A stretch of DNA of 47,760 nucleotides from Alphaproteobacteria bacterium (GTDB taxonomy: Bacteria > Pseudomonadota > Alphaproteobacteria > CADEGL01). The notes under the pieces were generated by a model. It did no database searches, was not told the origin of the DNA, and was given only the letters and a program-made list of their open reading frames with translations. Each line of letters starts with the position of its first letter. Position 1 is the first letter of the stretch. A program made the position numbers and the translations under genes. The stretch is taken from contig JAPLOM010000003.1 in NCBI GenBank assembly GCA_026400755.1, positions 61,562-109,321 on the forward strand, in the 5' to 3' direction. Shown here piece after piece: positions 23,409-42,205 of this stretch.

Positions 23409-24401
23409 CTAATTGCGGACGATGGTGCCCAGCCCTTTCGCTTTCGCGCGGCGAAAGGCCAGGACGCCGATGGCCGTGTCCTGCACGCCCGTGCCGGTCA
23501 GATCGCAGACGGTGATCTGGGAATCCGAGGTGCGGCCCGGCGCGCGGCCCGCGGCCACCTCGCCCAACTCGGCCACGCTCGACGACGACTTGATCGCGCC
23601 GGACGCCAGCGCATGCTGCAGCTCGCCCATCTTCTCGCACTGCGTGCGACGATCGCAGACCACGCGGTCGGCGCGGCCGAGAATGGCGGGGTCCAACTCC
23701 TGCTTGCCCGCCAGGTCGGCGCCCATGGCGGTGATGTGCAGACCGGGCTTCAGCCATTCGGCGCGCACCAGCGGTAACTTGGCATTGGTCGTGGTGACCA
23801 GCACGTCGCAGACGCGCACGGCCTCCTCCGCGCTGGAGGCGGCGGCAACCTCGATGCCGAGCTTCTTCGTCATTTCCTCGGCATAGGCCTTGGCCTTCGC
23901 GCCATCACGGCCCCAGACGACCGCACGCTTCACCTCGCGCACGACCTTAAGCGCTTCGAGTTGATAGCGCGCCTGCACGCCCGTGCCGAGGATGCCAGCG
24001 ATCAGCGGACCTTGCTTCGCCAGATGCTTGGCGGCGACCGCGCCGGCCGCACCCGTGCGCACGTCGGTGAGATAGGCGTTGTCCAACAGCACGGCCTCGA
24101 CCACACCGGTCTTGGATGAGACCAGCACCACGCTGGCCGGCGAGTTGGGCAATCCCAGCTTGTGGTTGTTGAAGAAGCCCGCGCCGATCTTGACCGCGAA
24201 CTGATCGACGCCGCGCACATAGGCGCTCTTGATGTCGACGTCGCCCGCATTCTCCTTCACGTCGATATGCATGATGGGCGGCATCTCGACCTTGCCGTCG
24301 GCCAGCCGCACGAAGGCGTCCTCGATCGCGTCCACAACCTCGCGGTCCAGCCCCACGATGCCGCGCAACTCGCGCTCGGTCAGGATCGTCACCTCGGTCA
24401 T
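23409..24401 (-). CDS. eutC: Ornithine cyclodeaminase/mu-crystallin family protein, EutC-like
   Basis: The 330-residue protein has the family layout: an N-terminal substrate domain (VDAIEDAFVRLADG, the Lys-containing DIKSAYV and FAVKIGAGFF segments) and a central NAD-binding Rossmann domain with GILGTGVQARYQLEAL (about 137-152). VTTTNAKLPLV and HITAMGADLAGKQELDP follow. The best recalled resemblance is to EutC of ectoine utilisation; the same family includes DauB (arginine dehydrogenase partner of DauA) and alanine dehydrogenases. It should reduce or oxidise an imine or cyclise/deaminate an amino acid with NAD(P). The gene follows the EutB-like gene after a 22-base gap, the same order as in eut clusters. 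Confidence 0.8.
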   Translation of the reverse strand: MTEVTILTERELRGIVGLDREVVDAIEDAFVRLADGKVEMPPIMHIDVKENAGDVDIKSAYVRGVDQFAVKIGAGFFNNHKLGLPNSPASVVLVSSKTGVVEAVLLDNAYLTDVRTGAAGAVAAKHLAKQGPLIAGILGTGVQARYQLEALKVVREVKRAVVWGRDGAKAKAYAEEMTKKLGIEVAAASSAEEAVRVCDVLVTTTNAKLPLVRAEWLKPGLHITAMGADLAGKQELDPAILGRADRVVCDRRTQCEKMGELQHALASGAIKSSSSVAELGEVAAGRAPGRTSDSQITVCDLTGTGVQDTAIGVLAFRRAKAKGLGTIVRN

Positions 24402-24423: not shown

Positions 24424-25437
24424 TCAGGGCCGCTTCAACTGCGTCAGACCGTCGAGCCAGTCGCGGTGGGCGTTGACGATCTCGACCACGCGCGGGCTGG
24501 CCACGTTGGTGCCCGTCAGCACCATGGCCGTGGGGCCGGCCAGACGCCCCGCCTTGTCGGCCAGGACGGCCGCGATGCCGACAGCGCCGCCGCCCTCGAT
24601 CACCAGATGCTCGCGGTCGAAGGCGTATGCCATGGCCGCGGCGATTTCGTCTTCCGACACCAGGATCAGATCGTCCACCAGTTCACGCACCAGGCGGAAC
24701 GTGTAGGCGTTGTCGAGGAAGATGCCGCCTTGCAGGCTGTCGGCCAGCGAATCCACATCTGGGATCTGCACAGGCCGCCCGGCCTTGAGGCTCTGGTACA
24801 TGGCCGCGCCGTTCTCCATCGACACGCCAATGACGCGGCATTGCGGCCGCGCGGTCTTGACCGCCAGCGCGATGCCGCCAATGAGGCCGCCGCCCGAGAC
24901 GGGTACGAGGACGTTCGAAACGTCGGGCAGATCTTCCAGGATTTCGAGGCCGATGGTGCCCTGGCCCGCGATCACGAACGGATCATCGAAGGGATTGACC
25001 ATGGTCATGCCCTTGGTCTCGACCAGTTCGAAGGCAACCTCGGCCGCCTCGTCCTGGCTGCGCCCCTGCACCACCAGCTCGGCGCCCGTGGCGCGGATGG
25101 CGGCGCGCTTGTTCTCCGGCACCAGGTTCGAGACGCAGACCGTGGCCTTCACGCCCGAGCGGCCCGCCATGTGAGCGACCGCGCGGCCGTGGTTTCCGGT
25201 CGAGACGGTGACGACGCCGCGTGTGCGCTGACCTTCGGTCAGTCCCAGGATTTTGTTGGCCGCGCCTCGCACCTTGAACGAGCCCGTGTCCTGCAGCGTC
25301 TCGAGCTTCAGGTGGACGGGCGCGCTCGCGAACTGGGCAAGCCAAGGCGATGGGATCAGCGGCGTGCGCCGCACCGCGCCCGCGATGCGGCCGCGGGCGG
25401 CATAGATATCTCCGAGCGTGACGGGACCGGCGCTCAT
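24424..25437 (-). CDS. eutB: Threonine-dehydratase-like PLP enzyme, EutB-like
   Basis: The 337-residue fold-type II PLP enzyme has its cofactor lysine in TGSFKVRGAANK (Lys55), the STGNHGRAVA substrate loop (about 79-88) and a phosphate-binding glycine loop SGGGLIGG (about 173-180). It is catalytic-domain only, without the regulatory ACT domain of IlvA. Blocks such as PVHLKLETLQDTGSFK, VSNLVPENKRAAIRA, GRSQDEA, GQGTIGLEILEDLP and GVSMENGAAMYQSL closely match hydroxyectoine-utilisation dehydratase EutB as I recall it. EutB is thought to dehydrate a hydroxylated intermediate to give a 2-oxo product. It is adjacent to the EutC-like gene and downstream of a class III aminotransferase. Confidence 0.8.
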   Translation of the reverse strand: MSAGPVTLGDIYAARGRIAGAVRRTPLIPSPWLAQFASAPVHLKLETLQDTGSFKVRGAANKILGLTEGQRTRGVVTVSTGNHGRAVAHMAGRSGVKATVCVSNLVPENKRAAIRATGAELVVQGRSQDEAAEVAFELVETKGMTMVNPFDDPFVIAGQGTIGLEILEDLPDVSNVLVPVSGGGLIGGIALAVKTARPQCRVIGVSMENGAAMYQSLKAGRPVQIPDVDSLADSLQGGIFLDNAYTFRLVRELVDDLILVSEDEIAAAMAYAFDREHLVIEGGGAVGIAAVLADKAGRLAGPTAMVLTGTNVASPRVVEIVNAHRDWLDGLTQLKRP

Positions 25438-25495: not shown

Positions 25496-26902
25496 TTAGC
25501 CCTTGAACAGGCCTTCGCGGACCAGCTCGTCGGTCACTTTGTCGAGGCCACGGCGGCAACGCGCCACCATGTCGTCCACCTCGGCCGGGGTGATGCAGAG
25601 CGGCGGGGCGAAACCCAGGCAGTCGCTGTGCGGCATGGCGCGGGCGATGACGCCCTCGGCCAGGACCGCGCCGGAGACGCGCGCACCGATCTTCAGCTTC
25701 GTGTCGAAGCGCGTCTTCTTCTCGCGATCAGCCACGAACTCGACCGCGCCGAGCAACGCATAGCCACGCACCTCGCCCACCATCGGATGATCGGCGAAGG
25801 TTTTCTTCAGCACGGCTTGGAAATGCGCGCCCGTGCGCTTGGCGTTGCCGGCCATGTCTTCCTTTTCCAGCACGTCCAGATTGGCCAGGCCCGCGGCGCA
25901 AGCGACCGGATGACCCGAGTAGGTGTAGCCATGGCCCATGGGTCCGATCTCCGCCGATTTCTCCTGGATCACGGCGCAGATCTTGTCGGAGACGATGGAA
26001 CCGGACAGCGGCTGATAGGCGCTGGTCAGGCCCTTGGCGATGGTCATGAGGTCCGGCTCCATGCCGAGCGGATAGCAACCGAACGCCTCGCCCAGGCGGC
26101 CGAACCCGCAAATGACCTCGTCGTCGATCAGAAGCACATCGTACTTCTTCAGCACCTTCTGAATCGCGGGCCAATAGCCTTCGGGCGGCACGATGATGCC
26201 GCCGGTGCCCATGATCGGCTCGCCGATGAAGGCGGCGACCGTCTCGGGTCCCTCCTTCACGATCATGGCTTCCAGATCGTCGACCAGCTTCTGGGTGAAC
26301 TGGGCCTCGCTCATGCCGGGCTCGGCGTACCAATAATGGTGCGGCGTCGTGGTGTGCAGGATGGGACCCACGGGAAGATCGAAGTAGGTGTGGAACAGCG
26401 GCAGGCCCGTGAGGCTACCCGCGATCACGGTCGAGCCGTGATAGCCGCGATGGCGCGAGATGATCTTCTTCTTCTTCGGCTGGCCGCGCAGGTTGTTGTA
26501 GTACCAGACCAGCTTCACGTTGGTTTCGTTGGCGTCCGACCCCGATAGGCCGAAATAGACCTTGGCCATGTTGGCGGGCGCCATGCGCACGACGCGATCG
26601 GCCAAGCGGATGGCCGGCTCGTTCGAGTGCGAGGCATAGACGTGATAGTAGGCCAGCTTCCGCGCCTGCTCGGCGATCGCGTCGGCGACCTCCATGCGGC
26701 CGTAGCCGATGTTGACGCAGTAGAGCCCGCCGAAGCCGTCGATCAGCTGCTTGCCCGCCTTGTCGGTGATGGTGACGCCCTTGGCCGTCTCGATGATGCG
26801 TGGCGTGCCCTTGGCGTGGTCCGCCATGGAGGTGGAGGGATGCATCAAGCTCTGCTTGTCCATCTCCTCGAGCGACAGGTTGCGCGTTGCCTGCTGGGCC
26901 AT
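25496..26902 (-). CDS. Class III PLP-dependent aminotransferase (omega-amino acid:pyruvate type)
   Basis: The 468-residue protein has the PLP lysine at Lys290 in TIAKGLTSAYQPLSG, the LIDDEVICGFGRLG cofactor-Asp motif (258-271), YFGLSGSDANETNVK (115-129) and HRGYHGSTVIAGSLTG (151-165). It belongs to the family with putrescine- and omega-amino-acid-pyruvate transaminases and the DoeD-type diaminobutyrate transaminase. It moves an amino group from a terminal or beta amine to pyruvate. A strong AAGGAG lies just before ATG 26902. It is the first gene of the minus-strand cluster running through EutB-like, EutC-like, GST and class V genes. A 236-base gap upstream should contain the promoter, though no convincing hexamer pair was seen. 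Confidence 0.9.
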   Translation of the reverse strand: MAQQATRNLSLEEMDKQSLMHPSTSMADHAKGTPRIIETAKGVTITDKAGKQLIDGFGGLYCVNIGYGRMEVADAIAEQARKLAYYHVYASHSNEPAIRLADRVVRMAPANMAKVYFGLSGSDANETNVKLVWYYNNLRGQPKKKKIISRHRGYHGSTVIAGSLTGLPLFHTYFDLPVGPILHTTTPHHYWYAEPGMSEAQFTQKLVDDLEAMIVKEGPETVAAFIGEPIMGTGGIIVPPEGYWPAIQKVLKKYDVLLIDDEVICGFGRLGEAFGCYPLGMEPDLMTIAKGLTSAYQPLSGSIVSDKICAVIQEKSAEIGPMGHGYTYSGHPVACAAGLANLDVLEKEDMAGNAKRTGAHFQAVLKKTFADHPMVGEVRGYALLGAVEFVADREKKTRFDTKLKIGARVSGAVLAEGVIARAMPHSDCLGFAPPLCITPAEVDDMVARCRRGLDKVTDELVREGLFKG

Positions 26903-28140: not shown

Positions 28141-28875
28141 ATGACGATCTACAAAACGCGGCGCGCGGCTGAAAGCTACGGCCAGGCCATCGGCATCCTG
28201 CTGCTCGATGCGAAGGCGCCCTTCATTCCCGGCGACGTCGCGAACGCCAGCACCTACGCCTATCCCGTCATCTTCAAGACGATCGAAGGCCTCTCGACCC
28301 CGGTGTGCCTGAACGGCGCGCCCGAGTTCAACGCCAAGCTGGCCGCAGGCGCCAAGGAGCTGGAAGCGGCGGGCGTGCGCGGCATCTCCTCCGACTGCGG
28401 CTTCATGTTGCAGTTCCAGGACGCGGTGCGCGAGGCCGTCAAGGTCCCCGTCGCCATGTCGAGCCTGCTGCAGATTCCGATGATCGCCCAGACGCTCGAC
28501 AAGTCGCGCTCGATCGGCGTGATCACCGCCGATTCGACCAACCTGACGCCCGACTTCCTGACGCGCGGCGGCATCAGCGTGCCGCACAAGATCGTCATCC
28601 GCGGCATGCAGGACGAGCCGGAGTTCAAGACCGCCGTGCTAGAGGAAAAAGGCACGCTGGATTCGGACCTGATCACCGAGGAAGCGATCCGCATCGCCAA
28701 GGACATGGTGAAGAAGGACCCGACCATGGGCGCGATCCTGCTCGAATGCTCGATGCTGCCGCCCTATGCCAAGGCCGTGCAGGCGGCGGTCGATCTGCCC
28801 GTTTACGACTTCGTCAGCATGATCGACTACATGGAATCGGGCCTGCACCAGCGCGCCTATTCCGGCCAATACTGA
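28141..28875 (+). CDS. Aspartate/glutamate racemase-family protein (copy 1)
   Basis: The 244-residue protein has the two active-site cysteines of the Asp/Glu racemase superfamily in equivalent places: SSDCGF (Cys about 83) and LECSMLPPYA (Cys about 201). Related enzymes include maleate isomerase, arylmalonate decarboxylase, hydantoin racemase and EutA of ectoine utilisation. The two-cysteine arrangement argues for racemisation or isomerisation rather than decarboxylation. The likely job is to invert an alpha-carbon so that the D-amino-acid dehydrogenase or PLP enzymes of the island can act; this is inference. A GGGAGG ribosome site and a clear promoter precede it, and the second copy follows after 19 bases. 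Confidence 0.85.
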   Translation: MTIYKTRRAAESYGQAIGILLLDAKAPFIPGDVANASTYAYPVIFKTIEGLSTPVCLNGAPEFNAKLAAGAKELEAAGVRGISSDCGFMLQFQDAVREAVKVPVAMSSLLQIPMIAQTLDKSRSIGVITADSTNLTPDFLTRGGISVPHKIVIRGMQDEPEFKTAVLEEKGTLDSDLITEEAIRIAKDMVKKDPTMGAILLECSMLPPYAKAVQAAVDLPVYDFVSMIDYMESGLHQRAYSGQY

Positions 28876-28894: not shown

Positions 28895-29632
28895 ATGCCG
28901 CTCTATAAAACCCGGCCCAAGGCCGAAGCCTACGGCTACTGCGTGGGCATCCTGCTCCTCGACTACAAAGGCCCGTTCGTTCCCGGCGATGTCGGCAACG
29001 CGACGACCTACAAGTATCCGGTCCTCTACAAGACCGTGCCGGGGGCCACGACCGCGCGCGTCTTCGCGGCCGACCCCGAGTTGGAAAAAGCCGTGATCAA
29101 GGCCGCGCAGGAGTTGGAGGCCCAAGGTGTGAAGGCCATCTCCTCCGACTGCGGCTTCTTCGTGAACTACCAGAACGTCGTGGCCAAGTCGGTCAACATT
29201 CCGGTGGCCATGTCGAGCCTGCTGCAGATTCCCTTCGTCGCGCAGTTCATCGGCAAGAAGCGCTCGATCGGCGTCATCACGGCGTCCCAGAAGGCGCTGG
29301 GCAACCGCGCGCTGGAATTGGCGGGCGTGAAGGCCGAGACCCAGGTCGTCGTGCGCGGCATGGACGACCAGCCGAACTTCGACCAGATGGTGATGAAGGA
29401 AGGCGACTATCTCGACACCGACAAGATCGAGGCCGAGACCGTGGCCGTCGCCAAGAAGATGGTGAAGGAAAATCCGAACATGGGTGCCATCATCATGGAA
29501 TGCTCCATGCTGCCGCCCTATTCCAAGGCCGTGCAGGAAGCCACCGGGCTTCCCGTCTACGACTTCATCAACATGATCGATTACGTCCAGCGCGGCACGC
29601 ACGCGCGCGGATACGAGAACCGCTACTACTGA
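28895..29632 (+). CDS. Aspartate/glutamate racemase-family protein (copy 2)
   Basis: The 245-residue tandem paralogue of the preceding gene (about half the residues identical by eye) keeps both cysteines (SSDCGFFV and MECSMLPPYS) and the SMSSLLQIP / RSIGVIT / DFxxMIDY blocks. Divergence is greatest over residues 45-70 and 130-170, which could tune substrate specificity. Some superfamily members are hetero-oligomers, so the two copies might also form a mixed enzyme. The gap of 19 bases holds a GGGGGA ribosome site. A strong terminator closes the two-gene operon right after this gene. Confidence 0.85.
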   Translation: MPLYKTRPKAEAYGYCVGILLLDYKGPFVPGDVGNATTYKYPVLYKTVPGATTARVFAADPELEKAVIKAAQELEAQGVKAISSDCGFFVNYQNVVAKSVNIPVAMSSLLQIPFVAQFIGKKRSIGVITASQKALGNRALELAGVKAETQVVVRGMDDQPNFDQMVMKEGDYLDTDKIEAETVAVAKKMVKENPNMGAIIMECSMLPPYSKAVQEATGLPVYDFINMIDYVQRGTHARGYENRYY

Positions 29633-30765: not shown

Positions 30766-31923
30766 TCAGTTCACCACCAGTTCGCGCGGCGCGTGGGTTG
30801 CGCGCTCGAAACCGGTCTTGGTGATGATCGCCGTCTCGCCGATCGAGACCGCGCGGCCGCTTTTTTCGTCCACCGCGATCATGTGGGTGAACAGAGTCAT
30901 GCCGGGGCGCAGCACTTCCGGATTGCCGCTCCAGCACATCGGCCATTCCATCCAGGACGGCGGGAACGTGGCGCCGACCGAATAGCCGCAGGCGTTCAGG
31001 ATGCGGCCCTTGAAGCCCGAGCGCTGGAACGCGCGGGCATGGGCGTCGTAGACCTCGCCGCACGTGCGCCCGGGTTTCAGGAAGCTTTGCGTTCCTTCCA
31101 GCGCCTCGCGGCAGAAGCGGAAATTGTCGTGCTGACGCTTGTCGGCCTTGCCCGTCAGCGCGACGTTCATGACCACGGCGTGATAGTGGCGATAGGGCGC
31201 GGCCAGCTCGTAGGTGACCTGGTCGTTCTTGCCCACCACGCCATGCTTGGTGTGATAGCGCACGAGATCCGCGTTGGCGCCGCAGGTCATCGGCCAGCGA
31301 TCGCTCGACGGATCGCCGCCGCCCGCCATGATCAGCGTGTTGACCTCACCATAGATGCGCCCGATATCGGCGCCAGGCACCGTCATCCGGTTTCCCAATT
31401 CCAGCGCGGCGTCAGCCAGCTTGCCCGCGCGGCGGACATAGGCCAGCTCGGCCGGGCTTTTCACCACGCGGATCAGGCGCACGATGTCCGAGCCGTCCTC
31501 GACCCGGCAGAAACCCTCCAGCGCCGCGTCCACCATCTTCGCGCGTTGCCCTGTCAGGCCATAGGCGTGGTACTCGACGCCGATGCGTTTTCCCTGGCAG
31601 CCGTAGTCGGCCAGCATGGCGCGTACGTCCTTGCCCGGCTCCGCTCCCTGCCGGTCGACCCACATGCGCACGTCCTGGATCGTCGAAGTGACCTCGGCCT
31701 GGCGCACGTCGGGCGAGCGCGTCAGCAAAGCCGTGCGTCCGTCCTGGCCAAAGTAAAGCGCCTGGAACATGACGTAGCCGCTCGTGTCATAGCCGGTCAG
31801 CCAGTACATGCTCTCCTGCTTGAAGATCAGGAGCCCGTCCAGGCCGAGCCGGGCCAGCGCGGCGCGGACGGCTTTCTGCCGCCGCGCGAACTCGGCCTTG
31901 CCGAAGTGCAGGTGCAGCGCCAC
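30766..31923 (-). CDS. M24 'pita-bread' hydrolase without metal ligands, EutD/DoeA-like (paralogue a)
   Basis: The 385-residue protein has an N-terminal creatinase-type domain (1-160, with ESMYWLTGYDTSGY) and a C-terminal pita-bread domain. Metallo-M24 enzymes use Asp, Asp, His, Glu, Glu; here the aligned positions appear to be Glu239, His248, Tyr314, His347 and Glu363, so a two-metal site is not possible. Similar changes mark the metal-free creatinase and ectoine hydrolase branches. It probably opens a C-N bond in a small, perhaps cyclic, compound rather than cutting Xaa-Pro peptides. It starts at GTG 31923, six bases after paralogue b, with no clear ribosome site, implying coupling. It is the last gene of the minus-strand operon. 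Confidence 0.85.
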   Translation of the reverse strand: MALHLHFGKAEFARRQKAVRAALARLGLDGLLIFKQESMYWLTGYDTSGYVMFQALYFGQDGRTALLTRSPDVRQAEVTSTIQDVRMWVDRQGAEPGKDVRAMLADYGCQGKRIGVEYHAYGLTGQRAKMVDAALEGFCRVEDGSDIVRLIRVVKSPAELAYVRRAGKLADAALELGNRMTVPGADIGRIYGEVNTLIMAGGGDPSSDRWPMTCGANADLVRYHTKHGVVGKNDQVTYELAAPYRHYHAVVMNVALTGKADKRQHDNFRFCREALEGTQSFLKPGRTCGEVYDAHARAFQRSGFKGRILNACGYSVGATFPPSWMEWPMCWSGNPEVLRPGMTLFTHMIAVDEKSGRAVSIGETAIITKTGFERATHAPRELVVN

Positions 31924-31929
31924 GGCGCG

Positions 31930-33213
31930 TTACCGCCGGCGGGCCTTGGTCTTCGAACGCGCCGTTCGCTTGGCAGCCGGCTTGCGTTTCGCCGCGGCCT
32001 TGCGCACCGGCTTCGCCGCTTTCTTCGCCGCGGGCTTCGCGCTCTTCCGGGCAACGCCCGATCCGCTCAGCACCGGCTCGCGCGGGGCGTGGTTCACCAG
32101 ATCGGCCGCGCGCGGCGTGACGATGGCCGTCTCGCCGAGCGACATAGACAGGCCCGTGCGGCCATCCAACAGGATCATGTGCAGGAAGAACACCATGCCT
32201 GGCTCCAGCACCTGGGGATTGCCGTGCCAGCACATGGGCCAGTCCATCCAGTTGGGCGGATAGGTCACGCCCAGCGTGTAGCCGCAGGCGTTGAGGTAAC
32301 AGCCGTCATAGCCCGCCTTGGACAGCGAGCGCGCATGGGTGTCGAAGATATGACCCACCGTGTTGCCGGGCCGCACGACCTCCCAGCACGCGTCCAGCGC
32401 CTCGCGCCCGGCCTTGAACATGTCGAGGTGGCGCGGATCGGGCTTGCCCGTCAGCACCACGTTCATCAGCGCGGTGTGATAGTGGCGGTAGGCCGAGGCG
32501 AATTCGAACATCACCTGGTCCTGCGCGCCGACCTTGCCGTGGCCCGTGTGGTAGCGCACCAGCATGGCGTCCTGGCCGCCGCCCATGGGCCAGCGCATGG
32601 CCGAGGGATCGCCGTCGCCGCGCATGATGACGTTCATCATCTCGCCGTAGATGGCGCCGATGCTCTCGCCCGGCACGCACATGCGGTTGGCCACCGCCAG
32701 CGCATCGTCCGCCAGCTCGCCCGCGCGCCGCACATAGGCCAACTCGGCCGGGCTTTTCACCAAGCGCAGGAGGCGCACCAGGTCGGAGGCGTCGCTGAGT
32801 TTGGCGAAGTTGTCGAAGGCCGCGTCCACCAACTTGGCGCGCTGCCCGGTCAGACCATAGGCATGGTATTCGACGCCGATCTTCTTTCCGCGCCCGCCCA
32901 AATCCTGAACCATGCTGCGCAGGTCGATAGCCGGATTGGCGCCTTCCACATCGCGCCAGATGCGAATGTCCTCGAGCGTCGAGGTCATGCGCGATTGCAG
33001 ATCGTCGGCCGAGCGCGTGCACAACGCGATGCGCCCATCGACCGAGAGATACATGCCCTGGAACAGCACGAAGCCTTCGGTGTCGTAGCCGGTCAGCCAA
33101 TACATGGTTTCCTGGCGGAAGATCAGGAGCCCGTCGAGCCCCTGGCGCGTCATCTCCGCCCTTGTCTTGCGCTGTCGTTCGGCGAACTCCGCGCGGGTGA
33201 AGTGCAGGGCCAT
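31930..33213 (-). CDS. M24 'pita-bread' hydrolase with a basic C-terminal tail (paralogue b)
   Basis: The 427-residue protein has the same two-domain architecture as its neighbours (ETMYWLTGYDTEGF; FEFASAYRHYH; ACGYTLGVTYPP; PGMVFFLHMI; SLGETAIVT), again with Glu/His/Tyr/His/Glu at the former metal positions. The enzyme core ends near residue 382 (NHAPREPVL). About 42 extra residues follow, composed almost only of Ala, Lys, Arg and Pro, resembling histone-H1-like tails. The other three paralogues stop at the equivalent of residue 383. A good AAGGAG lies five bases before ATG 33213. The tail could bind nucleic acid or polyphosphate, or tether the enzyme; its function is unknown. Confidence 0.85.
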   Translation of the reverse strand: MALHFTRAEFAERQRKTRAEMTRQGLDGLLIFRQETMYWLTGYDTEGFVLFQGMYLSVDGRIALCTRSADDLQSRMTSTLEDIRIWRDVEGANPAIDLRSMVQDLGGRGKKIGVEYHAYGLTGQRAKLVDAAFDNFAKLSDASDLVRLLRLVKSPAELAYVRRAGELADDALAVANRMCVPGESIGAIYGEMMNVIMRGDGDPSAMRWPMGGGQDAMLVRYHTGHGKVGAQDQVMFEFASAYRHYHTALMNVVLTGKPDPRHLDMFKAGREALDACWEVVRPGNTVGHIFDTHARSLSKAGYDGCYLNACGYTLGVTYPPNWMDWPMCWHGNPQVLEPGMVFFLHMILLDGRTGLSMSLGETAIVTPRAADLVNHAPREPVLSGSGVARKSAKPAAKKAAKPVRKAAAKRKPAAKRTARSKTKARRR

Positions 33214-33233
33214 GTCGTTCTCCTTCGCGGGTT

Positions 33234-34388
33234 CTAGTTGGTCACGAGATAACGCGGCGCGTGGCAGACTTGTTCGGAGCCCTTGCGCGTCACCACGGAA
33301 CTTTCACCGATCGACATGGACAGGCCCGTGCGGTCGTCCAGCAGCATCATCTGCTTGAAGAACAGCATGCCGGGCTTCAGCACCGTGGGGTTGCCCGCAT
33401 GAATGAAGCAACCCTCCATCCAGGTCGGCGGGAATTGCGCGCCCGTGGTGTAACCGCAGGCCGGCAGGGTGGTCTTCGCGAACTTGGAGCGCTTGATGAC
33501 CTTGGACTGGGCGTTGAACACGTCGGCCACCACGTTGCCGGGCCGGAATGCCTCCTCCGCCGCATCCAGCGCCTCGCGCACCACCTTGAACATCTCGCGG
33601 TGGGCCGGATGGATTTTGCCGGTCAGCACCACGAACATCATCACCGTGTGGTAGTGGCGATAGCAGGAGCCGAACTCGAACGTCGACTGGTCGTTCTTCT
33701 TGGACACGGGGCGGTGCCCCGTGTGGTAGCGCACGAACAGCGCCTCTTGGCCGGCGCCGATGGGCCAGCGCGAAGCCGGCGGGTCGCCATCGCCCGCCAC
33801 CATCACCTGCAGCATGTCGGCATAGATCTTGGCGATGGAGGCGCCGGGCACGCAGTCGCGCACGGCGATGTCGCGCGCGGCGTCGGCCAGTTCACCCGCA
33901 CGCCGGATGTATGTCAGCTCGGCAGGGCTCTTGAACATGCGCAGCGCGCTGACGAGGTCGGTCGCGTCCTCCGAACGGCAGAAGCCTTCCAGTGCCGAAT
34001 CCACCATCTTGGCGCGCTGGCCGGTCAGCCCGTAGGCGCCGTATTCCACGCCGATGCGCTTACCGCGCACGTTGTAGGATTCCAGCATATCGCGCAGGTC
34101 GAGGGCGGGTGTCGCCCCCTCACGGTCGATCCAGATGCGGACATCCTTGATGACCGAGGTGTATTTGGACTGCAGGCGGTCCGCCCCGCGCGTGACCAGC
34201 GCCAGGCTGCCATCGACGCCCAGCCACATGCCCTGGAACAAGGCGAAACCGTTGGTGTCGTAGCCGGTCAGGTAATACATGGTCTCCTGCCGGAAGCAGA
34301 GCAGACCATCCAACCCGCGCGCGGCGATCGCGCGCCGCGCGGCCATCTGGCGCCGTGCGAACTCCGCACGGCTGAAATGCAAGGCCAT
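33234..34388 (-). CDS. M24 'pita-bread' hydrolase, most divergent copy (paralogue c)
   Basis: The 384-residue paralogue has ETMYYLTGYDTNGF in the N-domain and FEFGSCYRHYH, ACGYTTGAQFPP, PGMLFFKQMM and SIGESSVVT in the C-domain. The position that is His in the other three copies (first former Glu ligand) is Gln here. The segment after the PP-x-WM motif reads GCFIHAGNP rather than WPMxWxxNP, so its pocket differs most and a different substrate is likely. GGGGGAG precedes ATG 34388. It lies 20 bases upstream of paralogue b and 77 bases downstream of the lipoprotein pair, on the same strand. Confidence 0.85.
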   Translation of the reverse strand: MALHFSRAEFARRQMAARRAIAARGLDGLLCFRQETMYYLTGYDTNGFALFQGMWLGVDGSLALVTRGADRLQSKYTSVIKDVRIWIDREGATPALDLRDMLESYNVRGKRIGVEYGAYGLTGQRAKMVDSALEGFCRSEDATDLVSALRMFKSPAELTYIRRAGELADAARDIAVRDCVPGASIAKIYADMLQVMVAGDGDPPASRWPIGAGQEALFVRYHTGHRPVSKKNDQSTFEFGSCYRHYHTVMMFVVLTGKIHPAHREMFKVVREALDAAEEAFRPGNVVADVFNAQSKVIKRSKFAKTTLPACGYTTGAQFPPTWMEGCFIHAGNPTVLKPGMLFFKQMMLLDDRTGLSMSIGESSVVTRKGSEQVCHAPRYLVTN

Positions 34389-34465
34389 CCGACGTCTCCC
34401 CCTTAGCTACGACGATCCACAAAAAGCCTAGGGAGTTTGCGCGGGCGCGGCAACGGGAAGCGGAC

Positions 34466-34885
34466 TTATGGAGGAGGAAGAGCCGGCAAGCCGAGCACCG
34501 TGCTGAGGCGGTCATAGAAGGTCTTTTGGTAAAATTCCGGAGCATCCACTTGCTGGCTTGCAAACTGACTACCGACGAAGACATCGAGTTGGACGGCGGT
34601 GCTTGCTCCATACGGCGTTACGCGTGCCTCGGCCATCAACCAGCCCTTTATCGCGGTCACCAAGCTATAAGAAAGATCGGCGCGCTTGACGATATAGCCC
34701 CCGTCGGAAAAGGAAGCGACCACTCCGCGCAAGACAGCCCGTGTGTCGTTGGTCGCGAAATGACGGGTTTGCATCGCCACGACTTCGCGTTCCGGCTTTT
34801 CGCTGATTTGGCGCGGCGATTTCTCCTCGCACCCCAACAGCGCAAGGGCCGCACAGACCGTCCACGCAAAGGCATAACGGATCAT
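34466..34885 (-). CDS. Small putative lipoprotein (distal member of a pair)
   Basis: The 139-residue protein starts at ATG 34885, overlapping the previous gene by four bases. It has a short signal sequence with lipobox ALLGC (Cys19). The mature part has a helix with RAVLRGVVASFSDGGYIV, a strand pair containing EARVTPYGASTAVQLDVFV, and a C-terminal amphipathic helix FYQKTFYDRLSTVLGL. I do not recognise the family. The same order of elements (R-x-x-L helix, G-aromatic-x-V, strand, T-x-[VI]QL strand, aromatic-rich C-terminal helix) occurs in the upstream lipoprotein, so the two look like diverged duplicates. G+C appears lower than in the flanking enzyme genes. Confidence 0.78.
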   Translation of the reverse strand: MIRYAFAWTVCAALALLGCEEKSPRQISEKPEREVVAMQTRHFATNDTRAVLRGVVASFSDGGYIVKRADLSYSLVTAIKGWLMAEARVTPYGASTAVQLDVFVGSQFASQQVDAPEFYQKTFYDRLSTVLGLPALPPP

Positions 34886-35466
34886 GGTCGGGGCTGGTGT
34901 CCGAATTTGTCGCTGAGATTGATGAAAAACTGTGTGTAAGGCTGGGGGTTCTCGACGCGTCCATAAAACCCGGTCAGCCAAAGCTGGATTCGCGTGGTGC
35001 CGGCCAGCGAATCCACGTCCGCGACGATGGCCGCATAGCCCGCCTGAGGCACATGGGTTCCTACCCCGGGTCCCTCCTTGATTTTCACCCCGGTAAGCAT
35101 CGCGATGGGTAAGGCAACGACCAGACCGAAAATGATTTGGTTGGCAGTTATGTCTTGAGGCTGTGCGCGGAAATCGCCGAGCAAAATCCCTGCCGGCATC
35201 GCGATCGGATTAACCACAAAGCCTTGGGCTTCGAGCACGTCTTTCGCAGCCGCCAAAAGCGCTTCGCGATCGACGCCGTCGTAGACGCGGGTTTGTGCCT
35301 TGAGAAGAACAGGCAACGAGTCCACAGAAGGCTGTGCGTTAGCCACTTCCAGCGCATAGTCGTTGTGGTCGCGAGACCGGCAGCCGTCTAGCAGCAGGAC
35401 AAAGCCCAGCGCGAAGAAAAGCGCGCGCGCAAGCGCACGCCCACGAAGACCAGCCCAGGCTCCCAT
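34882..35466 (-). CDS. Putative lipoprotein with an internal hydrophobic hairpin (proximal member of a pair)
   Basis: The 194-residue protein has a basic N-terminus, a hydrophobic stretch and lipobox LLLDGC (Cys29), predicting a lipid-anchored envelope protein. The mature part contains the helix DREALLAAAKDVLEAQGFVV (about 71-90) and a hydrophobic segment QIIFGLVVALPIAMLTGV (about 113-130). It also contains the strand pair AAIVADVDSLAGTTRIQLWL and a C-terminal YTQFFINLSDKF. The function is unknown. It lies 12 bases after the fourth M24 gene and overlaps the next lipoprotein gene by ATGA, so it is part of the M24 operon. Envelope anchoring in an otherwise cytoplasmic catabolic operon is unusual. 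Confidence 0.78.
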   Translation of the reverse strand: MGAWAGLRGRALARALFFALGFVLLLDGCRSRDHNDYALEVANAQPSVDSLPVLLKAQTRVYDGVDREALLAAAKDVLEAQGFVVNPIAMPAGILLGDFRAQPQDITANQIIFGLVVALPIAMLTGVKIKEGPGVGTHVPQAGYAAIVADVDSLAGTTRIQLWLTGFYGRVENPQPYTQFFINLSDKFGHQPRP

Positions 35467-35478
35467 ACCGCGGTATCG

Positions 35479-36630
35479 CTAGTTCACTACCAGCCGCCGG
35501 GGCGCGTGGTTGACGAGCTCACACTTGCCCTTGGTGACGATGGCCGTCTCACCCAGCGACATCGAAACGCCGGTGCGATCGTCGAGCAGGATCATGTGCA
35601 TGAAGAAGACCATGCCCGACTCGATCACCTGCGGGTTGTCCGCCCACATCATGGGCCAGTCCATCCACGAGGGCGGATAGGTGGCACCCAACGTGTAGCC
35701 GCAGGCCGCCAGCATCTGTTTCTTGAAGCCGGACTTCGTCATCGACTTGGCGTGGGCCGCATAAATATCGCCCACGGTCTTGCCCGCGCGCAGCGTCTCC
35801 TCGCACGCGGCCAACGCCATGCGGCATGCCTCGTACATATCCTTCTGCCGCTGGGTCGGCTTGCCCGTGATGACGTTGTGCATCAACGCGGCGTGGTAGT
35901 GGCGGTAGGAGGCTGCGAACTCGAACACCGCATTGTCCTGCTTGCCCACTTTGCCGTGGCCCGTGTGGTAACGGACCATGAGCGCGTCCTTGCCCGCACC
36001 CATGGGCCAACGCGAAGCGGTGGGATCGCCGTCGCCCCGCATGATGACGTTCATCATCTCGCCGTAGATGGCACCGATATGCTCGCCCGGCACGCACATG
36101 GCGTTGGCCACCGCCAGCGCCTCATCCGAGAGTTGACCCGCGCGGCGGACGTATTTCAACTCCGCCGGGCTCTTCACCAGGCGCAAGAGGCGTACCAGGT
36201 CGGTCGCATCCTCCGTGCGGCAGAAGCCTTCCAACGCCGCGTCGACCATGCGGCCGCGCTGCGCCGTGAAGCCGTAGGCGTGGTACTCGATGCCCACGCG
36301 TCCGCCCTTCGCACCCAGATCCTGCATCATGTCACGCAGGTCCATGGCGGGGTTGGCGCCGTCGCGGTCGTACCAGATGCGGATGTCCTTCAGCACCGAG
36401 GTCAGGCGCGACTGGATGCGGTCGGCCGTGCGGGTGAGCAGCGCGATGCGCCCGTTCTGGGCCAGATACATGCCCTGGAACATGCTGTAGCCGCCGGTGT
36501 CATAACCGGTCAGGTAATACATGCTCTCTTGACGGAAAATCAGAAGTCCATCCAAGCCCTGGCGCGCCATCTCGCGGCACGCGGCCGCCTGGCGGCGCTT
36601 GAACTCGTCTCGGCTGAAATGCAGTGCCAT
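35479..36630 (-). CDS. M24 'pita-bread' hydrolase without metal ligands (paralogue d)
   Basis: The 383-residue paralogue is most like copy b without its tail. The N-domain has ESMYYLTGYDTGGY and the C-domain has FEFAASYRHYH, ACGYTLGATYPP, SGMVFFMHMI (the usual PGM is SGM) and SLGETAIVTKG. The five former metal positions read Glu, His, Tyr, His, Glu as in copies a and b. GGGAGGG lies just before ATG 36630. It follows the large acyl-CoA dehydrogenase gene by 60 bases and precedes the lipoprotein pair, so the order acyl-CoA dehydrogenase, M24d, lipoproteins, M24c, M24b, M24a probably forms one transcript. Confidence 0.85.
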   Translation of the reverse strand: MALHFSRDEFKRRQAAACREMARQGLDGLLIFRQESMYYLTGYDTGGYSMFQGMYLAQNGRIALLTRTADRIQSRLTSVLKDIRIWYDRDGANPAMDLRDMMQDLGAKGGRVGIEYHAYGFTAQRGRMVDAALEGFCRTEDATDLVRLLRLVKSPAELKYVRRAGQLSDEALAVANAMCVPGEHIGAIYGEMMNVIMRGDGDPTASRWPMGAGKDALMVRYHTGHGKVGKQDNAVFEFAASYRHYHAALMHNVITGKPTQRQKDMYEACRMALAACEETLRAGKTVGDIYAAHAKSMTKSGFKKQMLAACGYTLGATYPPSWMDWPMMWADNPQVIESGMVFFMHMILLDDRTGVSMSLGETAIVTKGKCELVNHAPRRLVVN

Positions 36631-36690: not shown

Positions 36691-38484
36691 TTAGAAAAGC
36701 GCGGACGTGGCGTCGAGGCAGGTCGAATCGAGGCTGCGCAGCAACTCGCCCTGCGCACGCGTCTTCGGCAGCTCCCAATGGAAGAAGTAACGGCAGGCCG
36801 CAAGCTTGCCCCGGTAGAAATCGGCCTCAGGCCCGTCCGCGTGCGGCGCCGCGGCGATCGCTTGCTTCAACCATATCCATGCGATCACCAAGTGGCCGAT
36901 CATGTCGAGATAGACCGACGCATTGGCCAGGAACAGGTTGATCTGGCCTTTGTCCTTGGCGGCATGGAGCGCATCGGTCGTGGCCTTGGCGTCGGCGACC
37001 GCGGCCAAGAGCGCATCGGCCCACGCACGCAACGTAGCGTCTTTCTTCGCCGCCTCGGCGGTCTTGGTCATTTCCGCCGTCAACAACGCGAAGGCCGCGC
37101 CGTTTTCGAAGCTGACCTTGCGGCCGAGCAGGTCCAGCGCCTGGATGCCGTTGGTGCCTTCGTGGATCGGGTTCAGGCGGTTGTCGCGGTAATGCTGCTC
37201 GACCGTGAAGTCGCGCGTGTAGCCATAGCCGCCGTGGATCTGGATCGCCAACTCGTTGGCCTTGAGGCACCAGTCGGACGGCCAGGCCTTGATCACCGGC
37301 GTCAGGATCTCGAGCAGCAGATGGGCCTCGCGCTTGGCGACTTCGTCGGGCGCGGTCGCCTTCTCGTCCACCAGGCGGCAGCAGAACAGGCCGAGGGCGA
37401 AGGCGCCCTCCACATACGCCTTCTGCGCGAGCAGCATGCGGCGGATATCGGCGTGCTCGATCAGCGCCACTTGCGGCTTGGTCGGGTCCTTCTCCTGGGG
37501 CGGGCGGCCTTGCGGGCGGTTGCGCGCGTAATCCAGCGAGGCCAGATAGCCGGCATAGCCCAGCATGACGGCGCCCATGCCGACGCCGATGCGCGCCTCG
37601 TTCATCATGTGGAACATGCAGGCCAAGCCTTGGTTCGGCTGGCCGACCAGATAAGCCGTGCAGTCGTTGTTCTCGCCGAACTTGATCATGGTCGAGACGG
37701 TGCCGCGATAGCCCATCTTCTCGATCAGGCCGGCCAGCGCCACGTCGTTGCGTTTGCCGCGCGAGCCGTCGGCGTTGACGAGATAGCGCGGCACCAGGAA
37801 CAGCGACAGGCCCTTCACGCCCGGCGGCGCGCCCGCGATGCGCCCGAGGGCCAGATGCACGATGTTCTCCGACAATTCGTGATCGCCGCCGGAGATGAAG
37901 ATCTTCGTGCCCTTGAGCTTGTAGTGACCTTCCGGTTGCGGCTCCGCGCGCGTGGCGACGTCCGAGAGCGACGAACCCGCCTGCGGCTCGGTCAGCATCA
38001 TGGTGCCGAAATAGCGGCCTTCCAGCATGGGCTTGAGATAAAGCGCCTTCTGCTCCTGCGTGCCGAAGGCGCGCAGCAGATTGGCGTTCGCCATGGTCAG
38101 GAACGGATAGGCGATGGTGCCGACATTGGCGCCCTGGAAGAACGCCATGCAGGCCTGCGCCACGGTCCAGGGCAGTTGCAGCCCGCCCTCTTCCTCATCC
38201 ATGTGGGCGGACAGGAAGCCCGCTTCGCTGAACGCCGCGAGCGCCGGCTTCACCTCGGGGATGATCTTGACCTTGCCATCCACGAGATGCGGCTCGTTCA
38301 GGTCGGCCTTGCGGTTGTGCGGCTGGAACTTGTCGCGCGCGATGGCATGGGCCGTGTCCAGCACGGCGTCGAACGTCTCGCGGCCATGATCCTTGAAGCG
38401 CGGGCGGGCGCTGAGCGCCTCCACATCCAGAAGCTCATAAAGGACGAACTGGACATCGCGCGGATTGATGAACGGCAGGCTCAT
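36691..38484 (-). CDS. Large acyl-CoA dehydrogenase (about 600 aa, DmdC-like)
   Basis: The 597-residue protein has the acyl-CoA dehydrogenase core (about 40-440) with an extra C-terminal helical domain, the layout of the approximately 600-aa group that includes 3-methylmercaptopropionyl-CoA dehydrogenase DmdC. FAD-binding text MLTEPQAGSSLSDVATRAE and TKIFISGGDHE are present. The catalytic Glu is in NPIHEGTNGIQALDLLGRK. The N-terminal PFINPRDVQFVLYELLDVEAL is characteristic of this group. It introduces a double bond into an acyl-CoA of unusual structure. It heads the minus-strand operon with the M24 and lipoprotein genes, suggesting their product is finally handled as a CoA thioester. Confidence 0.92.
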   Translation of the reverse strand: MSLPFINPRDVQFVLYELLDVEALSARPRFKDHGRETFDAVLDTAHAIARDKFQPHNRKADLNEPHLVDGKVKIIPEVKPALAAFSEAGFLSAHMDEEEGGLQLPWTVAQACMAFFQGANVGTIAYPFLTMANANLLRAFGTQEQKALYLKPMLEGRYFGTMMLTEPQAGSSLSDVATRAEPQPEGHYKLKGTKIFISGGDHELSENIVHLALGRIAGAPPGVKGLSLFLVPRYLVNADGSRGKRNDVALAGLIEKMGYRGTVSTMIKFGENNDCTAYLVGQPNQGLACMFHMMNEARIGVGMGAVMLGYAGYLASLDYARNRPQGRPPQEKDPTKPQVALIEHADIRRMLLAQKAYVEGAFALGLFCCRLVDEKATAPDEVAKREAHLLLEILTPVIKAWPSDWCLKANELAIQIHGGYGYTRDFTVEQHYRDNRLNPIHEGTNGIQALDLLGRKVSFENGAAFALLTAEMTKTAEAAKKDATLRAWADALLAAVADAKATTDALHAAKDKGQINLFLANASVYLDMIGHLVIAWIWLKQAIAAAPHADGPEADFYRGKLAACRYFFHWELPKTRAQGELLRSLDSTCLDATSALF

Positions 38485-38580
38485 GGCGGGCTCGCGAAAC
38501 TGTAGGAAAGCCGTCGCTTATCTAGCATGAGCCGAACTGGGCCACCACCGGCCGGGGCCGCTTCCCGCGCCCCTGCCTGT

Positions 38581-38589
38581 TGCTATACT
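38581..38589 (+). promoter_or_regulatory. Candidate extended -10 promoter for the aldolase-GGT operon
   Basis: TGCTATACT is an extended -10 element (TGn plus TATACT at 38584-38589) located 63 bases before ATG 38653. The region 17 bases further upstream (CTTCCC) is a poor -35, as expected for an extended -10 promoter. Confidence 0.42.
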
Positions 38590-38652
38590 TGCCGCTGGCC
38601 TCCCCGGCCATGCCGCATAACAACCAAGCCATTTCAAACGAAAGGACTGTCG

Positions 38653-39435
38653 ATGCGCGAGAACAACGTGAAGAAGATCGTCGCCGCGGGCGGCAACGTG
38701 GTGAACGGCTGGCTGGGCGTGCCTTCGGGCGTCACCGCCGAGGCCATGGCGCACGTGGGCTGGGACAGCCTGTGCATCGACATGCAGCACGGCCTGGTGG
38801 ACTACCAAGCTTCCGTCTCCATGCTGCAGGCCATCTCGACCACCGACGTGACACCGCTGGTGCGCGTGCCGTGGAACGAGCCCGGCATCATCATGAAGTC
38901 TCTGGATGCGGGCGCCTACGGCATCATCTGCCCGATGATCAACAGCAAGGAAGAATGCGAGCGCTTCGTCGGCGCGACGCGTTATGCGCCCCAGGGCTAC
39001 CGCAGCTGGGGACCCGTGCGCGGCATGATCTATGGCGGCGCGGACTATGCGACCGGCGCCAACACTACGCTTCTGGCCATCGCCATGATCGAGACGGCCG
39101 AGGCGGTCGAGAACGTGGATGCCATCATGAGCGTGAAGGGGCTGGACGGCGTCTATGTCGGCCCGTCGGACATGGGCATCAGCATGGGCTTCGGCCCCGG
39201 CTTCGATCCGACCGAGCCCAAGCTGATCGAGAACTTCAAGAAGATCGCGGCGGCGGCCAAGCGCCACAAGATCTTCGCCGGCATCCACTGCGGCTCGTCC
39301 GCCTATGCGCTGAAGATGATCGAGCTGGGCTATCAGTTCGTCACCATCCTGGGCGAGACGCGCCTGATGACCTGGGCGGCGAAGAATGCGGTGACGGCGG
39401 TCAAGACCGGCAAGCCCAACCCCAACGCGCCGTAA
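38653..39435 (+). CDS. HpcH/HpaI-family class II aldolase
   Basis: The 260-residue TIM-barrel protein has the family's opening NGWLGVPSGVTAEAMAHVGWDSLCIDMQHG. The metal ligands are Glu in MIETAEAVENV and Asp in GVYVGPSDM, and the barrel ends with HCGSSAYAL and LGETRLMTWAAK. The family makes reversible aldol cleavages releasing pyruvate or a 2-oxo acid plus an aldehyde, normally with Mg2+ or Mn2+. ATG 38653 with AAAGGA upstream is chosen because the fold begins here; the in-frame codons before it lie in the promoter region. It is followed after 37 bases by the GGT homologue on the same strand. Confidence 0.9.
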   Translation: MRENNVKKIVAAGGNVVNGWLGVPSGVTAEAMAHVGWDSLCIDMQHGLVDYQASVSMLQAISTTDVTPLVRVPWNEPGIIMKSLDAGAYGIICPMINSKEECERFVGATRYAPQGYRSWGPVRGMIYGGADYATGANTTLLAIAMIETAEAVENVDAIMSVKGLDGVYVGPSDMGISMGFGPGFDPTEPKLIENFKKIAAAAKRHKIFAGIHCGSSAYALKMIELGYQFVTILGETRLMTWAAKNAVTAVKTGKPNPNAP

Positions 39436-39472: not shown

Positions 39473-41086
39473 ATGATGCGCGACTTCGAACTGCCCGGCC
39501 GCTCCGCCGTCCATGCCGCGAACGGCATGGCGGCGACGCCGCACCCCTTGGCCACCCGCACGGCGATCGACGTGCTGCAGGCGGGCGGCAACGCCATGGA
39601 TGCGGCCTTGGCCGCGAACGCCGTTCTGGGCGTGGTCGAGCCGGCCATGACCGGCGTCGGCGGCGACTGCGTCATTCTTTATGCGCCCAAGGGCGGTGCG
39701 GACATCACCGCCTTCATGGGCATCGGCCGCGCGCCGCAAGCCGCCACGCTGGAGTGGTACAAGCAAAAAGGCATCAATCACGCGCCGACCCTGTCGCCCC
39801 ACATGGTGGCCGTGCCGGGATTGGTCGATGCCTGGCATCAATTGTCGCGCGACCACGGCACTTGGCCGCTGGCGAAGCTTCTGGCCCAGGCCATCGCGTA
39901 TGCCGAGGACGGCCACCCCGTCCACGAGCGCGTGGCGCGGGATTGGACCAGCCTGTCGCCGATCCTGGCGCGCGATCCGGGCAGCAAGGGCGAGTTCCTG
40001 GCATCCGGCGCACCGCCCAAGCCCGGCACGATCCACCGCCGCCCCGCCCTGGCCGCGACCTTGAAGCGCATCGCGGCCGAAGGGCGCGACGGGTTCTATC
40101 GCGGCCCCGTGGCCGAGGACATCGTGGCCACGCTGCGGGCCCTGGGCGGGTTGCACACGCTGGAGGATTTCGCCGCGTTCCAGGGCGAATACGTCGCAAC
40201 CGTCGCCACCACCTATCGCGGCGTCGATCTTCTGATGTGCCCGCCGCCCTCGCTGGGCCTGGTCACGCAGGCCGCGCTCAACATCCTGTCGCACTTCGAC
40301 CTCGCCGGGCTCGAGCCGCTGTCGGCCGCGCGCCTGCACTTGGCCGTGGAATCCGCGCGCCTGGCCTATGCGGAACGGTCGCGCCTGCCGGCCGACGGCG
40401 TGGACGCCACAGCAGTCACCGCCGACATCCTGTCGGCCGCGCGCGCGAAGACACTGGCCGGACGCATCGATCCCAACCGCGCGATGGACAAGGTGGCAAG
40501 CCCGCCCAAGGGCGGCCCGGCCGAGACGACCTATCTGTGCGTCGTCGACCGCGAGCGCAACGCGGTCAGTTTCATGAGCACGATCGTGGATTTCTTCGGC
40601 AGCCGCGTGACCGCGCCGAAATCGGGCGTGATCCTGAACAGCCGCGGCGAGTACTACAATTCCGACGCGGCCGATCCCAATTGCTGGGCGCCGCGCAAAC
40701 GCCCCTTGTCGTATTCGCTGCCCGCCATGGCGCGGAAGGATGGGCGCACGGTGATGCCGTTCGGTCTCGTGGGCGGCTCGTTCCAGCCCATGGGCATGGC
40801 GCTGGTCTTCTCCAACATGGTCGATTTCGGCATGGACGTGCAGGAGGCGCTGACCGCGCCGCGCGTCTTCTCGCAGGATGGCGTGCTGGACTATGAGCGC
40901 GGCTTGCCGGACCACACGGCGCTGGATCTGGCCGCGCGCGGACACAAGGTGGTGCGCCGCTCGGAAGGGCCGCGTCGCGCCAACGGACCGCTCGGCGGCG
41001 GGCAGGCCATCTGGATCGATGGGAAGGAAGGCGTGCTCACCGGCGGGGCCGACCCGCGCAATGACGGCGCCGCCCTCGGCTACTGA
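39473..41086 (+). CDS. Gamma-glutamyltransferase-family Ntn-hydrolase, apparently cytoplasmic
   Basis: The 537-residue protein has the GGT precursor layout: large-subunit start ANGMAATPHPLATRTAIDVLQAGGNAMDAALAAN, MTGVGGDCVILY, and the autoprocessing site before Thr352 in ETTYLCVVDRERNAVSFMS, where Thr352 would be the new N-terminal nucleophile. Two things differ from periplasmic GGT. There is no signal peptide. The MDDF-type glutamate-binding segment of the small subunit is replaced by SRGEYYNSDAADPN, with SYSLPAM in place of the usual SSMTP. It may therefore be an acylase or amidase for another amide. Paired Met codons occur at 39473/39476 with GGGAGAAG upstream. It is coupled with a 63-aa protein gene downstream. 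Confidence 0.9.
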   Translation: MMRDFELPGRSAVHAANGMAATPHPLATRTAIDVLQAGGNAMDAALAANAVLGVVEPAMTGVGGDCVILYAPKGGADITAFMGIGRAPQAATLEWYKQKGINHAPTLSPHMVAVPGLVDAWHQLSRDHGTWPLAKLLAQAIAYAEDGHPVHERVARDWTSLSPILARDPGSKGEFLASGAPPKPGTIHRRPALAATLKRIAAEGRDGFYRGPVAEDIVATLRALGGLHTLEDFAAFQGEYVATVATTYRGVDLLMCPPPSLGLVTQAALNILSHFDLAGLEPLSAARLHLAVESARLAYAERSRLPADGVDATAVTADILSAARAKTLAGRIDPNRAMDKVASPPKGGPAETTYLCVVDRERNAVSFMSTIVDFFGSRVTAPKSGVILNSRGEYYNSDAADPNCWAPRKRPLSYSLPAMARKDGRTVMPFGLVGGSFQPMGMALVFSNMVDFGMDVQEALTAPRVFSQDGVLDYERGLPDHTALDLAARGHKVVRRSEGPRRANGPLGGGQAIWIDGKEGVLTGGADPRNDGAALGY

Positions 41087-41517: not shown

Positions 41518-42205
41518 ATGAAGAAAGCATTTCGTCTTTCGCTCGTCGCCGGCGCCGCGCTGGCGGCCGCCGTGGCGGTCGGCGTATCCGCACAGCAGAA
41601 CAATCGGCGTATCCGCACAGCAGAACAACATGAGCTTCTTCGTCACCAGCACCAATCTCGGCAAGGGCGGTGATCTGGGCGGGATCACCGGCGCCGACCA
41701 GTTCTGCCAGACGCTGGCGGCCCGCGCTGGCGCGGGCAACAAGACCTGGCGCGCTTACCTGAGCACCCAGGGCGCGGGTGCGGTGAACGCGCGCGACCGC
41801 ATCGGCAAAGGCCCGTGGCAGAACGCCAAGGGTGACGTCATCGCCAAGGACGTGAACGAGCTGCATGCAGCCAACAACATCACCAAGCAGACCGCGCTCT
41901 CCGAGACGGGAGCGGTCATCAACGGGCGCGGCGACACGCCCAACATGCACGACATCCTGACCGGCTCGCAGGCCGACGGGCGCGCCTTCCCGGACGGGGA
42001 TGACCGCACCTGCGGCAACTGGACGGTTAACGGCGCGGGCGCGGCCATGGTCGGCCATTCCGACCGCACGGGTTTGGACGACAGCGCGGGCGCCCGGTCC
42101 TGGAACGCCTCACACCCTTCGCGCGGCCCGGGCGGCGGTTGCAGCCAGGACGACTTCAAAAGCACTGGCGGGTCGGGCTTGCTCTATTGCTTCGCGGCCA
42201 ACTGA
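41518..42205 (+). pseudogene. Secreted lectin-like protein gene, frameshifted by a 25-bp duplication
   Basis: ATG 41518 (AAGGGGA upstream) begins a classic signal peptide, MKKAFRLSLVAGAALAAAVA...VSAQQNN. The mature protein, 41630-42205, is in another frame (191 residues from MSFFVTSTNLG). A perfect 25-bp tandem duplication (41579-41628) lies exactly between them. Removing one copy joins ...SAQQNN directly to MSFFVTSTNLG in frame and gives about 220 residues. As written, the signal-peptide frame stops at 41671-41673 after 51 residues. The mature part (GADQFCQTLA, TWRAYLST, NARDRIGKGPW, NMHDILTGS, DRTCGNWT, GCSQ...LLYCFAAN) resembles bacterial secreted lectin-like proteins with paired cysteines. 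It may be a pseudogene, a phase-variable switch, or a sequencing error. Confidence 0.8.
41579..41628 (+). repeat. Perfect 25-bp tandem duplication
   Basis: Bases 41579-41603 and 41604-41628 are identical and directly adjacent. The length is not a multiple of three, so copy number sets the frame: one copy joins the signal peptide and mature lectin-like protein, two copies break them. Confidence 0.95.

Follow-up and report, generated by a model that had tools for sequence, protein, structure and literature searches.

Four paralogous genes of the M24 family are found at positions 30766-36630 of a 47,760-nucleotide stretch of an alphaproteobacterial genome (contig JAPLOM010000003.1; the whole stretch is called the window). 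With moderate confidence we propose that their products, copies A to D, are four metal-independent hydrolases of an EutD-related M24 subfamily that would open small nitrogenous, ectoine-like compounds. The open reading frames and the Pfam domains bear out the four same-strand paralogues of 383-427 residues described in an initial annotation of this DNA: all are on the minus strand (383, 384, 427 and 385 residues for A, B, C and D), and each carries Creatinase_N and Peptidase_M24 domains with scores far over the Pfam cut-offs. Assembly duplication was rejected, as the copies are 53-69% identical in pairs and recur in further genomes. Relatives of the same family are referred to as G001 to G004, of which G001 belongs to the same genus and G002 to the same family.

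Loss of the metal site

The columns of the metal ligands were read from an alignment of the copies with a Pyrococcus prolidase and EutD. None of the five ligands of M24 metallopeptidases (Asp, Asp, His, Glu, Glu) is kept in any copy. The first Asp is replaced by Glu237, the second by Ala or Val248, the His by Tyr312, the first Glu by His345 (Gln in the copy at 33234-34388) and the second Glu by Gly360. The initial annotation had read these positions as Glu, His, Tyr, His and Glu, with Gln in its copy c. Its first, third and fourth residues agree with our alignment and one copy does have Gln, namely copy B here, but the His and the Glu belong to neighbouring positions: His246 stands two residues ahead of the canonical second Asp, and Glu361 directly follows Gly360. 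Since positions 2 and 5 are Ala or Val and Gly, not His and Glu, the loss read from the alignment is more complete than had been claimed. For the fifth position the register was set by the spacing to the next strand motif and by the same shift in EutD, and is sequence-based, not spatial. That the canonical Asp-Asp-His-Glu-Glu set lies elsewhere in the fold was rejected, because the model matches individual M24 enzymes over its full length and each of the five columns holds another residue.

The same pattern is found in about 100 homologues, so the loss is due neither to chance nor to sequencing error, and no canonical ligand is kept within the subfamily. Among 101 relatives, Glu237 is present in 100, His246 in all and Tyr312 in 100, the exception at 312 being assembly Ns, while position 361 is Glu in 60, Arg in 28, Gln in 11 and Asp in 2. 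The label of Xaa-Pro peptidase, which is the default for many M24 genes and was already doubted in the initial annotation, does not fit these proteins, which have lost all five ligands and are nearest to EutD/DoeA by sequence and predicted fold. Xaa-Pro dipeptidase and aminopeptidase P (M24B) have a similar fold and the same Pfam domains, but differ in the metal ligands. As the subfamily lacks the metal-binding residues, the label is probably wrong for the whole of this conserved group, from soil bacteria to SAR11.

Relation to EutD and possible functions

Creatinase_N and Peptidase_M24 domains in a pita-bread fold place A to D in the M24 family. A profile built from the four copies had EutD/DoeA of Halomonas elongata (PDB 6twj, 6twk, 6yo9) as its best solved match, with an E-value of 5e-40. 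Comparison by predicted structure, as had been advised, was run on copy A, whose AlphaFold2 model has a predicted local distance difference test score (pLDDT) of 95.6. EutD came clearly ahead (Z 47.9, root-mean-square deviation 1.6, 379 residues aligned) of the best prolidase (Z 40.7) and of creatinase (PDB 1chm, 7yto; Z 39.7). The likeness to EutD covers the two-domain fold over its whole length and extends to the active site, where both lack the canonical ligands and have Glu in place of the first ligand, Tyr in place of the His and a His two residues before the second Asp. Glu237 aligns with EutD residue 255, His246 with His264 and Tyr312 with Tyr329. Creatinase, which hydrolyses a C-N bond without a metal, also has the pita-bread fold, but is 16-18% identical to the array copies. 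Its general base is His232, which we take to fall in the column of EutD His238. At that column, read from the prolidase and EutD His in an alignment without the creatinase sequence, the array subfamily has Arg. The proposal of a metal-free hydrolase like creatinase or ectoine hydrolase is thus supported for EutD, the nearest enzyme by sequence and predicted fold, but not for a creatinase-like mechanism.

Several observations weigh against the proposed reading, and against a close equivalence with ectoine hydrolase. The copies are 26-28% identical to EutD and score 117-157 bits, against equivalog cut-offs of 575-613 (TIGR02993, NF038259). An invariant Arg220 takes the place of EutD His238, in a column where His is kept by prolidase, by EutD and by the majority of the other metal-free M24 paralogues in the genome. 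The second active-site His is at the canonical position of the first Glu, whereas in EutD and its closer paralogues it is found two residues earlier. Because three tested EutD features fail, the array was not classed as EutD. The genome encodes further M24 proteins that are much nearer to EutD (557 bits on contig C50, and 473 and 461 bits). No EutE equivalog, the partner of EutD, was found in the genome, where the best protein, on another contig, has 298 bits against 402.7, and none of the cluster genes examined was recognized as part of a dedicated uptake system. Given the scores far under the EutD cut-offs and the invariant Arg220, A to D are, by their sequences, a distinct EutD-related subfamily of M24.

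We infer the following chemistry, residue roles and pathway, together with the absence of a metal. In the pita-bread pocket each copy would bind a small carboxylate containing nitrogen, probably an ectoine-related lactam or cyclic amidine. By analogy with EutD Glu255, Glu237 may serve as the nucleophile or the base at the ring carbon of the C-N bond, assisted by Tyr312, His246 and His345 (Gln in copy B), while Arg220 could hold the substrate carboxylate, polarise the substrate or stand in for the usual His. EutD is said in its structure paper to act via a covalent intermediate. The opened products would pass to the racemase-like, EutB-like, EutC-like and aminotransferase enzymes encoded nearby, the racemase, dehydratase, reductase and aminotransferase steps being drawn by analogy with the proposed hydroxyectoine route (PMC5924519). 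According to published work, ring opening of ectoine is the reaction of EutD itself, which depends on EutE to turn over efficiently, and the exact activities of EutABC are unknown (PMC8739950).

Other readings were weighed against metal-independent hydrolysis. The proteins may still be metalloenzymes in which a rearranged set of ligands, Glu237, His246, His345 and Glu361, makes up a new site for one metal. These residues do stand on the strands bearing the canonical ligands, but 39 of the 101 relatives have Arg or Gln at 361 and the copy B orthologues have Gln at 345, so that the Glu/His/His/Glu set is not kept even inside the array, and we consider such a site unlikely. Similarly doubtful is a single heteromeric enzyme made of mixed dimers in which some subunits only are catalytic, copy B with Gln345 being the odd one. 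The distances between the genes would suit co-transcription, A, B and C are retained together in two genera, and M24 enzymes of this class are known as dimers; however, many other genomes have a lone copy of the same subfamily, and G003 and G004 carry a different set of three.

The proteins might also be non-catalytic and use the M24 fold to bind ligands or partners, as does the N-terminal domain of Spt16. The loss of the entire metal site and the presence of Spt16 domains among the structural matches of the copy A model would agree with this, yet Glu237, His246, Tyr312 and Arg220 of the pocket show little or no variation across phyla, the setting of the array is catabolic and the nearest relative, EutD, is an active hydrolase (PMC8739950), which makes a purely binding role improbable. 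Finally, the array could encode ordinary hydrolases of ectoine or hydroxyectoine, with the function of EutD, within a divergent ectoine cluster lacking eutE. An EutB-like protein over the curated cut-offs, with EutC-like and aminotransferase neighbours, fits this reading, as do reported clusters with two eutD genes and no eutE (PMC13188858). Nevertheless, with Arg220, the shifted His and the far closer EutD relatives elsewhere in the genome, we judge it very improbable.

Organization and history of the cluster

The features of the array and its surroundings are listed in Table 1. The intergenic gaps are 60 bp between the acyl-CoA dehydrogenase gene and A, 12 bp between A and lipoprotein-like gene 1, 77 bp between lipoprotein-like gene 2 and B, 20 bp between B and C, and 6 bp between C and D, and the two lipoprotein-like genes overlap by 4 bp. 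These short gaps (6-77 bp) make a single operon of the seven genes plausible, even probable, in line with the apparent operon described before; the four M24 genes are not strictly adjacent, however, since the two lipoprotein-like genes break the array once, between A and B. A lipoprotein family common to the array and the single-copy locus described below was rejected, as the sequences do not match. The additional C-terminal tail of copy C (window 31930-32070) comprises about 45 residues rich in Lys, Ala and Arg, and a shorter basic tail is found in the G002 orthologue.

Table 1. Genes of the M24 array and of the surrounding cluster, with positions in the window
Feature	Position	Strand	Remarks
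EutC-like protein, cyclodeaminase family	23409..24401	-	passes PRK08291, misses TIGR02992
EutB-like pyridoxal phosphate (PLP) dehydratase	24424..25437	-	passes curated EutB cut-offs
Class III aminotransferase	25496..26902	-	PRK07482 family; kept in cluster
Asp/Glu/hydantoin-racemase-like protein 1	28141..28875	+	PRK07475 family
Asp/Glu/hydantoin-racemase-like protein 2	28895..29632	+	PRK07475 family
M24 copy D	30766..31923	-	385 residues; GTG start
M24 copy C	31930..33213	-	427 residues; additional C-terminal tail
M24 copy B	33234..34388	-	384 residues; Gln for His345
Lipoprotein-like protein 2, A/B interval	34466..34885	-	start MIRYAFAW; no family match
Lipoprotein-like protein 1, A/B interval	34882..35466	-	194 residues; no family match
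M24 copy A, EutD-like without metal ligands	35479..36630	-	383 residues; orthologues in G001, G002
Acyl-CoA dehydrogenase (Acyl-CoA_dh_C type)	36691..38484	-	60 bp upstream of A; near array in G001-G004
HpcH/HpaI-type aldolase	38527..39435	+	divergent from array; kept in cluster
Gamma-glutamyltransferase-like protein	39473..41086	+	kept in cluster (G001, G002)

The EutB-like protein reaches 448 and 418 bits against cut-offs of 413 (PRK07476) and 413.35 (TIGR02991). The EutC-like protein, with 418.6 bits, is over the PRK08291 cut-off but under that of TIGR02992 (EutC, 471.65), and neither racemase-like protein matched the NCBIfam EutA model up to an E-value of 0.001. The cluster is conserved in another genus: G002 repeats the set of gamma-glutamyltransferase, aldolase, acyl-CoA dehydrogenase, three M24 proteins, two racemase-like proteins, aminotransferase, EutB-like and EutC-like proteins. 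Of the seven sites in the genome with racemase-like genes, three have an M24 gene no more than 3 kb away; a rough post hoc binomial estimate puts the probability of this at about 0.004. The proximity hints at a working partnership of the two kinds of protein, analogous to that proposed for EutA and EutD.

Clusters with more than one EutD-like gene are known. Ectoine clusters of Thermodesulfobacteriota and Bacillota contain two eutD homologues and no eutE (PMC13188858, 2026), and resemble the present cluster in having eutB, eutC and aminotransferase genes. They have two copies, against three or four here, and the likeness was judged by gene content. The remark in the initial annotation that its author was not aware of a described four-copy array agrees with the papers searched, in which no such array was found, and needs to be qualified by these two-copy clusters. 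We regard the array as the amplification of a distinct subfamily related to EutD. Should its members prove to open different small compounds of nitrogen, they are a natural set in which to look for new reactions of the ectoine-hydrolase type, and for new bacterial routes for the recycling of dissolved organic nitrogen.

In a tree of 83 proteins, A, B and C each fall into a group of their own, and G001 and G002 have an orthologue in each group. Copy D was seen only in the window genome and is missing from the arrays of G002-G004, while in G001 the contig breaks off ahead of the site where D would stand. Three copies are present in each of G003 and G004, one of them grouping with a dispersed copy on contig C55 of the window genome. 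The ratio of nonsynonymous to synonymous substitution rates (dN/dS) between orthologues of A, B and C across genomes is 0.05-0.25, D having no orthologue for comparison. A, B and C are under strong purifying selection across two genera, and for these three the possibility of pseudogenes was rejected by the same values. The sequence comparisons support copies that are distinct and long-maintained. Copy B departs from the subfamily at positions 293, 301, 326, 327, 345 and 347 in all three orthologues examined, including a change from PM to CF in loop 326-327 in 3 of 3, and these six changes suggest an altered pocket.

M24 genes in the lineage and single-copy relatives

At an E-value threshold of 1e-10, the window genome has 33 M24 genes and G001-G004 have 34-39, these five genomes measuring 3.1-3.9 Mb; the range in 55 further genomes of the class is 0-12. 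Among 150 genomes across the phylum, most have 1-6 M24 genes and a few 7-12, and, the window genome aside, one has at least 19. Neither a bacterial lineage with over 30 M24 genes nor M24 expansions were found in the papers searched. The 33 genes comprise 24 of the Glu/Tyr type without metal ligands, 2 mixed and 7 canonical-looking, the 24 including one with internal stops and another in which assembly Ns occur and the first position is Gln. An M24 gene on contig C53 of the window genome (9106-10239) has three in-frame stop codons and is apparently decaying. General paralogue inflation was rejected for one control family, CoA_transf_3, with 6-10 copies as in many genomes of the class. Asp/Glu racemases are modestly expanded (7-10 in the family, 0-4 in others). 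On contig C10 of the window genome (125588-128125) a tandem pair of Asp/Glu-racemase-like genes is found directly beside an M24 gene, and likewise on contig C17 of G001.

Many Alphaproteobacteria, among them SAR11, carry one gene of the array subfamily. This relative is found together with pgeF in 17 of 80 loci, often also with lgt, NDUFAF7 and prs, these names being assigned by reading the protein sequences and not by family search. It is 43-53% identical to the array copies and has the same Glu, Arg, His, Tyr and His set, but differs in its single copy and housekeeping neighbourhood. The window genome has its own orthologue of the single-copy gene on contig C85, beside lgt, NDUFAF7 and pgeF, so that the array is, judged by orthology, a separate branch and distinct from this housekeeping gene. 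At that locus (L108, 47-3918) the gene lies between pgeF and NDUFAF7/lgt, an arrangement that recurs in many Alphaproteobacteria. More than 20 SAR11 (Pelagibacteraceae) loci encode the relative, with 43-49% identity, apparently retained despite small genomes. In a metagenome-assembled genome of Hyphomicrobiales (L032:8882-9874), a DDAH/arginine-deiminase-like gene directly adjoins an array-type M24 gene, and this neighbour may hint at amidino substrates.

Tentatively, and with less confidence than we place in the hydrolase function, we suggest that the array is what is visible of a radiation, throughout the lineage, of M24 hydrolases that need no metal and act on nitrogenous substrates, in which the array subfamily would use a catalytic set of Glu, Arg, His, Tyr and His unlike that of described M24 enzymes, and that the single gene kept in SAR11 and many Alphaproteobacteria may be an overlooked conserved enzyme. 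We know of no described M24 enzyme with this set.

Other genes of the window include one for a protein of 1134 residues with many RTX calcium-binding repeats (42275-45679), two adjacent ones whose products are each weakly similar to a 4beta-methylsterol monooxygenase model (14194-17016) and, next to the cluster, one for a protein with weak DUF1554 and endostatin-like matches (41630-42205).

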